A stretch of 44,621 bases of DNA from the IMG/VR virus record IMGVR_UViG_3300024259_000063, positions 1 to 44,621 of that record; one strand, given 5' to 3'. Below the pieces are notes generated by a model. That model did no database searches. It was not told the DNA's origin and saw nothing but the letters and a program-made list of their open reading frames with translations. Positions 4,389 to 7,619 of this stretch are shown here, in pieces. The DNA comes from a virus. Every line of letters starts with the position of its first letter. Position 1 is the first letter of the stretch. The position numbers and the translations under genes were made by a program.

Positions 4389-4733
4389 TCATAAATTCGT
4401 TATCTGTATTAAAATTATTGCTACCGCCAACATTAAACTAATGACAGTTTTAAGTGTTGGTATTTCTCCTATTAATAACCAAGCTAATAAACCAAATATT
4501 AAAGTTCCTACACCAAATCCAGCCAACCTCATATTCCAAAATGCACCAAAGTGTTCGTATGACCATTTAGTAGAATACCAAAATAGTGGAGCAATAATTA
4601 AACTCGTCCCATACACCCACCATATTGACTTTAGAAATTTGATTTCAGGCCAAACGTAATGACCTTGTAATTGGAAGAATGCTAAGATAGCAGCTACCGC
4701 TTGAGCAGAAATTGACCAATATAATTTTGTCAT
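4389..4733 (-). CDS. EmrE/EamA-like four-helix membrane protein
   Basis: The 114-residue protein has four hydrophobic helices (about 7-24, 35-53, 68-88 and 94-111). Its size and topology match small multidrug resistance or half-EamA transporters. The last two helices (GTLIFGLLAWLLIGEIPT, then LMLAVAIILIQI) carry the 'GE.P' turn common in EamA/SMR proteins. The conserved Glu in helix 1 of true EmrE (E14) is not visible, so export of cations is doubtful. The gene is directly coupled to the VOC-fold gene (four-base overlap). Confidence 0.5.
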   Translation of the reverse strand: MTKLYWSISAQAVAAILAFFQLQGHYVWPEIKFLKSIWWVYGTSLIIAPLFWYSTKWSYEHFGAFWNMRLAGFGVGTLIFGLLAWLLIGEIPTLKTVISLMLAVAIILIQITNL

Positions 4734-5536: not shown

Positions 5537-5735
5537 TATCTGAAACCCATACATTACATTGATATCGCTCTGACCATTCGGAATGACCAACGATATCTCT
5601 TGTCTTAAATTGTTGTATCCAAAATGCCAATTCATCTTCGGTTGGAACTTTGATTAAGTGAAATACAGTATTTACTTTATCTTGCGTTTCCATTCGCTTC
5701 CGCAGATACTTAGCTAACTCTATGTTGTCAATCAT
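5529..5735 (-). CDS. Hypothetical small protein
   Basis: The 68-residue protein has an N-terminal helix (NIELAKYLRKRMETQ) and a C-terminal strand-rich segment ending VWVSDND. No family was recognised. The start overlaps the stop of the redoxin gene by four bases (ATGA), so it is probably translated by re-initiation from that gene. Confidence 0.5.
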   Translation of the reverse strand: MIDNIELAKYLRKRMETQDKVNTVFHLIKVPTEDELAFWIQQFKTRDIVGHSEWSERYQCNVWVSDND

Positions 5736-6868
5736 TTTAATAATGTAACTGTAACAGTTTCTCCGCTATTAATTATGTGGTAAATACCACTTGGTAAATT
5801 TCTTGTATCCCAAAGGTGATGTCCATTCAGATAATTATTATAAACTTCTTTACCTAACATATCGTATATCTGAACATATCCGTAGCCATTAATATTCATA
5901 ACGCTATTAGACGGATTAGGCCACACAAGTATCTTCGGTGCTTCTATCATAACTAATTCTTGTGTTAGTTGCTTAAACATAATTGGATCAAGTATACTTT
6001 CTAAGTACTGCATCGCTTGTTGTTGGTTACCACCTATTATTATTTGAATTAAACCTATAACGTCTAGAACATTTAAATAACCATCTTGTGTTAAATCCCC
6101 TGCCTCTTCTGCGCAAATATATGTATTCGGTTCTCCTAATATTATGTCAACTAAAAACGTTATATCAAAAATATCTAACGTACTATTCCCATCTACATCA
6201 CCGCCTGTCCATACTAAGTTATTACATGCATCACAAGCATCCCCATCTCCATCATCATCAATGTCTGCCTGTGTTGGGTTGTAATCTTCTGGACAATTAT
6301 CGCTATCATCTAATAAACCATCGTTGTCAGTATCCACTTCAAGATATGATAACCCATCTTCTATTGCTGCAACAATTGCGCTTAAATTGAAACCTGATGT
6401 AGAAAGTAATACTACTCCATCTCCATCGATTACTACATTGTGTGGTATGTATCCATCACCGAAAGCACCCCAAATTTCTCCACCAGTTGAACCACCATCT
6501 AATATTGGATAACTAATACCAAATGCATCCGCCCATCCTTCACAACTATAAGTTGACCAATCAAAGCCGTGTGCTATAATTACTACTGGTTGATCCATAT
6601 ATCCTTGCCATACACCTTCTGTCTGCGGAGCCTCCGCCTGACACGATGGTCACCACGATGTGAATATGTTTATCCACGTAATTTTGTTTAAACCATCTGT
6701 ATCGTAATCCCAGTAACCTTCTCCGTTAACACATACCTCTGCGCCAAAGGTGTCTACAGTATCGCCTACTGTGTAGGTTTGACTATTCAGTTGGTTACCA
6801 CATAATACTATTGCGGCTAATACCCAAATTACAACAGACCACCATTTTGGTGTTAGATTATATTTCAT
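5732..6868 (-). CDS. Redoxin with in-frame TGA at the CxxC site, dockerin-like repeats and T9SS sorting domain (putative selenoprotein)
   Basis: Read through the in-frame TGA at 6650-6652, the product is 378 residues. Seen: an N-terminal signal peptide (1 to about 30, ending NSQ); a TlpA/AhpC-type redoxin domain (about 32-165); a thrombospondin type 3-like segment (DTDNDGLLDDSDNCP, about 178-213); two dockerin-like Ca-binding repeats (GDVDGNSTLDIFDI and GDLTQDGYLNVLDV, about 222-280); and a C-terminal PNPS...NLPSGIYHI module typical of T9SS sorting domains. Residue 73, where WCxxC has its first Cys, is the TGA: FTSW-U-PSCQAEAP. The cis-Pro motif (YIPHNVVID) is intact. Known: Sec can replace Cys in thioredoxin-fold sites. 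Inferred: the TGA is decoded as Sec, and the protein is exported and surface-anchored. Alternatives are a nonsense mutation or a base-call error in a Cys codon. The gene is coupled to the lipase upstream (11-base overlap). Confidence 0.7.
6620..6643 (-). promoter_or_regulatory. SECIS-like hairpin downstream of the in-frame UGA
   Basis: On the coding strand, six bases after the UGA, TGTC pairs with GACA. After a small A/AG-A mismatch, GCGGA pairs with TCCGC around a GGC loop (equivalently GCGG-AGGCT-CCGC). The loop begins 16 nt after the UGA; in E. coli fdhF the AGGUCU loop begins 17 nt after the UGA. The GG in the apical loop fits the SelB-binding loop of bacterial SECIS elements. The coding sequence itself is constrained, so chance cannot be excluded. 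Confidence 0.5.
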
Positions 6869-7619
6869 TTGTTCCTTCTACATACTCAAGTAAGTTGTCT
6901 GCGTATCCTGTGATACTGTGATCTGACAGCCCATCGAAGTAGTCCTTGTTCTTAAAGCCATCCCACCTACCTTTCAACCTATCCCAAGATCTTTTCCATA
7001 CATTAGTACCGAGTTCAACTACACCATCGTGATTGATATATCTCAACTCTCCGTGGTGTCGGTATCCCCAATGGTAGAAAGGCATCTTGGTTACGTCATC
7101 TGAATTATTAACAAACCTATAATGAGTAATATCTAAACTCTTCTTAAACGATTCATTACCTACTCTTGGTGAACCATACGTGTATAGTCCATTAACATTC
7201 CATCCAGCCGTTTTCAATCTAGCCGCAACTATAGTAGCCATAGATGCTCCGAGTGAATGACCAGTAACGATTAACTTTCTATCCTTACATTGTTTTAATA
7301 CATAGTCTCGTATATGTGACCAAAGCTTATCAACTTCTTTCTCAAACCCCTTGTGTACCTTACCATAAGAATATTTTGCAATAACAGAATCAACATTCAA
7401 ATCAGCCTTAATATCAGACCATGACTTAACTTCCGTACCCCTGAATGCTAACACAAAGTATTCATCATTATATGTAGCGTGAGCTTGTGCTCCACTCTTA
7501 TCAAAGTACTTGTGTCTATTAAATCCTAAACCTTTATATAAGGGCTTAGCTTCCTTACCATTTAAATAAGCGGTCTCCGAACACTTAGCCATCACCCATC
7601 CAAAAGATTCTTTATTCAT
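6858..7619 (-). CDS. Class 3 lipase (alpha/beta hydrolase)
   Basis: The 253-residue protein matches the fungal-type Lipase_3 family. It shows AFRGTE (58-63, oxyanion region), the nucleophile elbow TGHSLGASMA (Ser122), YTYGSPRVGN (147-155), a candidate catalytic Asp in NNSDDVTKMP (171-180) and a candidate His in DHSITGY near residue 236. No signal peptide is visible, so it would act in the cytoplasm on host lipids or be released at lysis. The ATG has a strong AAGGAG site. Together with the secreted redoxin downstream it looks like host-derived cargo. Phospholipase or acylhydrolase activity is inferred from the family. Confidence 0.85.
   Translation of the reverse strand: MNKESFGWVMAKCSETAYLNGKEAKPLYKGLGFNRHKYFDKSGAQAHATYNDEYFVLAFRGTEVKSWSDIKADLNVDSVIAKYSYGKVHKGFEKEVDKLWSHIRDYVLKQCKDRKLIVTGHSLGASMATIVAARLKTAGWNVNGLYTYGSPRVGNESFKKSLDITHYRFVNNSDDVTKMPFYHWGYRHHGELRYINHDGVVELGTNVWKRSWDRLKGRWDGFKNKDYFDGLSDHSITGYADNLLEYVEGTNEI

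Follow-up and report, generated by a model that had tools for sequence, protein, structure and literature searches.

A T4-like phage carries a probable selenocysteine-containing redoxin gene related to those of Marinimicrobia

The window, a stretch of 44,621 nucleotides that makes up IMG/VR virus record IMGVR_UViG_3300024259_000063, contains a redoxin gene whose reading frame is interrupted by a single TGA at the active site. Comparison with related sequences makes it highly probable that this Sec-redoxin gene encodes a genuine selenoprotein and is functional, and that a marine T4-like phage acquired it from Marinimicrobia (Fidelibacterota), which are very probably the hosts of this phage. Judged across phage and host genomes, selenocysteine (Sec) is left as the sole good reading of the UGA at 6652-6650.

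Results

The Sec-redoxin gene and its product

A sequence-only reading of the window had described an in-frame TGA on the first Cys of a redoxin WCxxC motif, followed by a SECIS-like hairpin. Both observations are real; the strand, which had not been given, is the minus strand (Table 1). The TGA occupies a ResA/TlpA-type active site, in the context KITWINIFTSW-U-PSCQAEAP. The translated protein matches the Pfam family Redoxin (PF08534) with 28.2 bits (cut-off 26.6) and ResA in a sequence profile comparison (E 1e-15). Its repeat region matches Thrombospondin-2 chains (E 8.6e-13), while the Pfam models TSP_3 and Dockerin_1 both score under their cut-offs. The C-terminal sorting domain is recognised by PF18962 (34.4 bits, cut-off 27) and TIGR04183 (31.1, cut-off 23). 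Since three of the nine phage relatives (L004, L005 and L014) lack this type IX secretion system (T9SS) tail, surface anchoring is not general among the phage proteins. An AAGGA motif sits ahead of the start codon, and the start of the gene overlaps the end of the esterase/lipase gene by 11 nt, which may reflect translational coupling. A gene for a small multi-pass membrane protein recurs near the Sec-redoxin gene in three phages (window 4392-4733, L010:8920-9261 and L120:8311-8655).

Table 1. Coordinates of the Sec-redoxin gene, its parts and its upstream neighbour in the window.
Feature	Position	Strand	Basis or remark
Sec-redoxin gene	5732..6868	minus	ATG 6868-6866, terminal TGA 5734-5732; open on both sides of one TGA; translates (6868-5732) as one 378-aa chain when that TGA is taken as a residue
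UGA codon, residue 73 (U73), first residue of the WUPSC active site	6650..6652	minus	TGA conserved in relatives
bSECIS-like hairpin GCGGA-GGC-UCCGC, AGGCU apical loop, 12 nt after the UGA	6625..6637	minus	conservation, compensatory pairs
Outer UGUC/GACA stem proposed earlier	6620..6643	minus	present in the minimum-energy fold of the window; not conserved beyond chance
N-terminal hydrophobic helix, residues 8-24, likely signal peptide	6797..6847	minus	translation and predicted model
Redoxin domain, residues 24-178, ResA/TlpA fold	6335..6799	minus	AlphaFold2, PDB fold matches, HMM alignment
Thrombospondin type 3-like Ca-binding repeat (~178-215) and dockerin-like repeats (~223-279)	6032..6337	minus	sequence matches
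C-terminal type IX secretion sorting domain, residues 315-370	5759..5926	minus	PF18962, TIGR04183
Esterase/lipase gene, directly upstream of the redoxin gene	6858..7619	minus	ORF table; PHROG 21992 esterase/lipase, E 1.7e-26

In a first model of the full protein, built from nine sequences, the active site was predicted with low confidence. Repredicted with 19 sequences, the redoxin domain was modelled by AlphaFold2 with a pLDDT of 86.9 and a pTM of 0.84. The model has a ResA/TlpA-like fold and active-site geometry, and its best PDB matches are ResA structures (TM-score 0.75-0.84), so that fold and sequence agree in ranking ResA first among the PDB matches. In the profile alignment to ResA, U73 and C76 take the places of the first and second active-site Cys, E79 takes that of the Glu in CxxCxxE, and P142 lies within the cis-Pro loop; the ResA residues at these positions act as the active-site Cys pair, Glu and cis-Pro. 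A selenol at such a site usually means faster nucleophilic catalysis.

The TGA is shared by phage and Marinimicrobia genes

A protein-based scan of IMG/VR yielded five contigs, and pattern and follow-up scans brought the set to 15 contigs plus the window. In these 16 contigs, which stem from separate datasets, 13 distinct phage genes carry a TGA at the U73 column and none carries a Cys codon. Several phage members were recruited by the TGA-plus-hairpin pattern, so that their having both is not independent evidence; the five IMG/VR contigs of the protein scan, as well as the host genomes, were recruited by protein patterns. The nine full-length aligned phage genes share 49-70% amino acid identity with the window copy, and four of the phage genes are of a WUGPC type. 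Random stops elsewhere in the related genes, which the sequence-only reading had named as a sign against a selenoprotein, are not seen: all have the TGA at exactly this codon. An alignment-driven scan of viral contigs, able to match Cys codons at the site (N[LI]FTSWC), returned no Cys relative. Five further contigs from a motif-only scan (TTYACNNCNTGGTGACC...) were rejected as chance matches that lack long open frames. When the window and five other phage contigs, the latter with about 370 kb, were searched for further UGA-Sec genes, only the redoxin gene was plausible, and INPHARED phages contain no close homolog (a single match at 24% identity). Type IV pilin/pseudopilin-like operons (GFTLIELIMVTIILGILAAVAIPRY), unusual for phages, occur near the Sec-redoxin gene at L013:8448-10752, L017:2466-4411 and L120:11649-12764, and a gene judged by its sequence to be peptide deformylase-like stands directly upstream of it at L125:3192-3812 and L168:1984-2604.

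With the phage alignment as query, a scan of about 85,000 species genomes gave 13 loci, and in all of them the TGA stands at this same codon, followed by the same hairpin. Those of the 13 whose titles name a taxon belong to Marinimicrobia/Neomarinimicrobiota (Fidelibacterota), the others being labelled as (uncultured) bacteria. The patterns used for these 13 host genomes were made from protein only and required neither element. All 13 loci were also recovered in a search of 245 Marinimicrobia/Neomarinimicrobiota (Fidelibacterota) genomes, which added members with WUGPC, WUSPC and other variants of the motif. Every TGA member inspected in the phylum has the hairpin except L096 (genome G084), a WUPDC homolog that lacks the GGAGGCTCC hairpin and may use another SECIS or be decaying. 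A Cys at this column, for which the sequence-only reading had proposed to look, was found in three more distant orthologs (L089, L090 and L094); they read TGT at this position, and the hairpin element is missing from their DNA there. The family thus combines a conserved in-frame UGA at the redox position with Cys in homologs, as in bacterial selenoproteins.

Several further selenoprotein-like genes were seen in the Marinimicrobia contigs. Tandem arrays flank the Sec-redoxin gene at L033:2246-16107 and in the same region of L038 and L032. They contain several DFTGL[QN]-U-PYC genes, which resemble the Omp28-related family and carry a CGCGAGTTTCGCG hairpin, as well as a TSW-U-GYC redoxin gene. 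In genome G105, L093 (~1501-1983) shows two consecutive in-frame stops at the active site (ATW-U-U-PC, scored as 2 TGA), possibly a double-Sec motif.

A conserved, covarying hairpin follows the UGA

Downstream of the UGA the elements CCAUCG, UGUC, AG, GCGGA-GGC-UCCGC, A and GACA follow each other, so that CCAUCGUGUCAG stands between the UGA and GCGGA-GGC-UCCGC. With its A-U pair opened, the AGGCU apical loop starts 16 nt past the UGA, as had been described from the window, and the inner hairpin is conserved and covaries. The outer UGUC/GACA stem of that description fared differently, its positions being paired in 71.3% of cases compared with 71.4% in shuffles, which is chance level. GGAGGCTCC stands exactly 14 nt after the TGA, with identical spacing, in 30 of the 31 TGA members and in none of the three Cys orthologs. 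Among 27 distinct sequences the hairpin shows 15 double-change cells (4.8 in shuffles) and 90.1% pairing (80.3% in shuffles), and for neither value did any of 500 shuffles reach as high. In the inner hairpin, both partners of each of the three outer pairs change, for example to GTGG/CCAC in L032, ATCGG/CCGAT in L039 and ACAGG/CCTGT in L010; sliding the stem partner as a control destroyed the covariation signal. The tip of the hairpin encodes E79-A80, two invariant amino acids that are fixed as GAG-GCT in the nine phages; in the genes of the window GAG makes up 34% of Glu codons and GCT 58% of Ala codons.

The AGGCU loop and the 16-nt spacing, on a GCGG/CCGC stem, fit the published bSECIS pattern (PMC13188914). 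The same model asks for a minimum free energy (MFE) of -7.5 kcal/mol or lower, and the window reaches -12.2 to -15.0, depending on the length folded. At 57 nt, nine of the 13 phage copies pass this threshold and four are weaker than -7.5 kcal/mol; in 4/13 copies the hairpin differs from the 40-nt minimum-energy fold. The z-score of the window is -1.24 for a 61-nt fold and -2.81 for a 40-nt fold, whose -16.9 kcal/mol is beaten by only one of 200 shuffles. The fold alone is modestly unusual; the proof is the conservation. An Rfam search gave no SECIS match, and no family at all reached threshold.

Sec decoding genes are found in the likely hosts

The sequence-only reading had pointed out that such a phage would depend on the Sec machinery of its host, and the likely host lineage does contain selA, selB, selD and tRNA-Sec. 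Above cut-off, selA is found in 11, selB in 10 and selD in 9 of the 13 host assemblies, and tRNA-Sec with anticodon UCA, which passes the Rfam cut-off and has ARAGORN confirmation, in 6/13. Assemblies short of a component are draft metagenome-assembled (MAG) or single-cell genomes. In the hosts selA adjoins selB, and host selD itself has an in-frame TGA. The phages themselves do not look like Sec-decoding entities: in ten phage records, all of them fragments, neither selA nor selB was found and no tRNA-Sec passed the cut-off, selD was not found in the six records checked (also fragments), and ARAGORN detected zero tRNAs in the window. Weak matches to the tRNA-Sec model in four phage records fell below cut-off, and those that ARAGORN could call are ordinary tRNAs (Tyr, Gly and Ala). 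From this gene content the phages appear to borrow the Sec machinery of the host, and, since none was detectable in the phages, the protein should be made only in Sec-decoding hosts.

Origin of the gene and host of the phage

The window is phage DNA, with a T4-like DNA polymerase, a sliding clamp, a clamp loader, an exonuclease and Mom-like genes. Its right part matches C72, a 31.8-kb phage contig (L195-L196) in the assembly of the Fidelibacterota genome G182, over about 15 kb at about 76% nucleotide identity; gene order is largely conserved, and C72 stops short of the redoxin region. This match, in a bin that is possibly contaminated, ties close relatives of the window phage to Fidelibacterota; for the window itself the link to a host is indirect. 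A second, weaker match to window DNA was found in G016. The window gene at 75-1361 was unmatched in Marinimicrobia genomes, as was the positive control. Taken together, we regard Marinimicrobia as very probably the hosts of the window phage.

In a tree of 34 redoxin domains, the copy on L018, a phage contig of 131 kb, falls beside one set of host genes, and the window and most other phages group with another. A single phage clade is rejected (p-AU 0.001), and the gene must therefore have passed between phages and hosts two or more times, by captures or exchanges. Its presence on phage contigs and the interleaving of phages with hosts in the tree are what is expected of a host-captured phage auxiliary gene.

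Alternative explanations of the TGA

A lone stop in an otherwise open frame looks like a sequencing or assembly error, or like a nonsense mutation in a phage pseudogene, and standard gene callers do report two ORFs. An assembly error is excluded by the presence of the identical TGA in 16 contigs, and the same codon recurs in the 13 host genomes. Moreover, dN/dS downstream of the TGA is as low as upstream, and pN/pS is about equal before and after it (window versus L018: 0.24/0.62 and 0.18/0.56), which makes both halves one selected protein. We regard the probability of an error or a pseudogene as practically negligible. It is also very unlikely that the UGA is decoded as another amino acid, be it Trp by a recoded code of phage or host, or through near-cognate read-through. 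Stop codon recoding occurs in some phages, and the codon stands in a UGAC context, which is a leaky stop context. In the window, however, TGA acts as an ordinary stop, as had been noted before: it ends 10 of the 37 ORFs checked and also this same gene, whose terminal TGA is a real stop with no such hairpin after it. Genome-wide recoding can therefore be set aside. Read-through of a leaky UGAC is further opposed by the UGAG and UGAA contexts that WUGPC and WUSPC members have at this codon. Finally, the site is that of the redox Cys, distant orthologs have Cys there and have lost the hairpin, and the hosts possess Sec genes, all of which speaks for Sec and against any other residue.

The frame might instead encode two proteins, a 72-aa secreted peptide that ends at the TGA and a re-initiated downstream protein, with the hairpin serving as a termination or attenuation element. 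In the window an ATG (M91) does open a downstream ORF of 288 aa, but M91 is a Met in only one of nine phages, and conservation is unbroken across the TGA. The point made earlier, that a start after the TGA would cost the protein its signal peptide and its catalytic residue, also stands, and we consider two products extremely unlikely. The remaining alternative accepts a selenoprotein but sees its gene as a host copy that is carried along as a passenger and plays no part in infection. Phage genomes contain many host-derived genes, the gene neighbourhood varies between the phages, and the secretion tail is missing from three of the phage proteins. In phage lineages, however, the gene is under purifying selection before as well as after the TGA; this, the repeated acquisition (AU p = 0.001) and a SECIS maintained against synonymous drift argue against a passenger, which we think unlikely. 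Those follow-up checks proposed from the sequence of the window that were run all came out in favour of the selenoprotein reading.

Discussion

UxxC proteins of the redoxin, Prx-like and Trx-like kinds are established marine bacterial selenoproteins, known from the GOS and Sargasso Sea selenoproteomes and, for PF08534, from a UxxC entry in PMC13188914. The Sec-redoxin shares with them the redoxin domain, Sec in place of the first Cys, a bacterial-type SECIS after the UGA and a marine bacterial origin; the window subfamily, however, has an architecture of its own, with a signal, the redoxin domain, TSP3/dockerin-like repeats and a T9SS tail. As it falls under every curated NCBIfam selenoprotein cut-off, we treat it as a distinct subfamily. 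NF045500 gives 85.7 bits on the window protein (cut-off 200), its C-terminal part aligning with the repeat region, and NF041054 gives 29.6 (cut-off 300), on the host protein L041 only. The Omp28-related selenoprotein described by NF045500 (GOS_C) has in common with the Sec-redoxin a UxxC Sec motif and the C-terminal repeat region, and genes with similar motifs stand in tandem beside the Sec-redoxin gene in Marinimicrobia. Only its C-terminal half matches, however; the N-terminal domain is another one, and the neighbouring host Omp28-like genes carry a different SECIS (CGCGAGTTTCGCG). The oxidoreductases ResA, TlpA and CcmG agree with the Sec-redoxin in fold, in the position of the CxxC motif, in the Glu three residues past the second Cys and in the cis-Pro loop, whereas the Sec-redoxin has Sec for the first Cys, PS rather than EP between the two redox residues, and extra extracellular repeats. 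No cytochrome maturation genes were recognised beside it within the window.

The open-access reports that link phages with selenocysteine concern tRNA-Sec genes only, in Basilisk-like Bacillus phages (PMC6145125) and in huge wastewater phages (PMC10747093). Going by the accessible parts of these two papers, such phages have a tRNA-Sec reported without a selenoprotein gene, whereas the window phages have a conserved selenoprotein gene and no detected tRNA-Sec. The selenoproteome lists name no phage or virus, and a 2026 review of prokaryotic selenoproteomes uses the words 'phage' and 'virus' zero times. What looks new here is thus carriage by bacteriophages, together with a subfamily under every NCBIfam cut-off, the UxxC redoxin selenoprotein being a known kind. 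We consider it likely that these genes encode the first recognised bacteriophage selenoproteins, and that several phage lineages independently captured Marinimicrobia Sec-redoxins, keep their SECIS under selection and parasitise the Sec machinery of the host.

The conserved anatomy of the element and the gene content of the hosts suggest how such a protein would be made. Host SelB with Sec-tRNA-Sec would bind the GCGG-AGGCU-CCGC hairpin downstream of the UGA and insert selenocysteine, and the 378-residue protein would be exported via its signal peptide and probably be anchored or released by the type IX secretion system of the host. Besides the Por sorting domain of the window protein, which scores above cut-off, PorU sortase is found above cut-off in 11/13 hosts, which makes T9SS surface delivery plausible for those copies that keep the tail. 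At the surface or in the periplasm the ResA-like domain, with U73 and C76 as a selenol-thiol pair, may act as a fast thiol-disulfide oxidoreductase or as a peroxide-handling enzyme, as its fold and motif suggest. We infer that the Sec-redoxin would be secreted and would work as a selenol/thiol oxidoreductase at the surface of the infected cell, either maintaining or remodelling disulfides there or dealing with peroxides.

Because standard gene callers split such genes, phage selenoproteins would be missed systematically, and the TGA-plus-hairpin pattern recovers them. A UGA-Sec codon in a phage would mean reliance on a host decoding system that is not universal, which is unusual for a virus and may restrict its host range. 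If this is true, the selenium status of the host is a determinant of phage biology, and the finding would connect marine selenium and exported redox chemistry with the phages of Marinimicrobia, a group that is abundant and uncultured.
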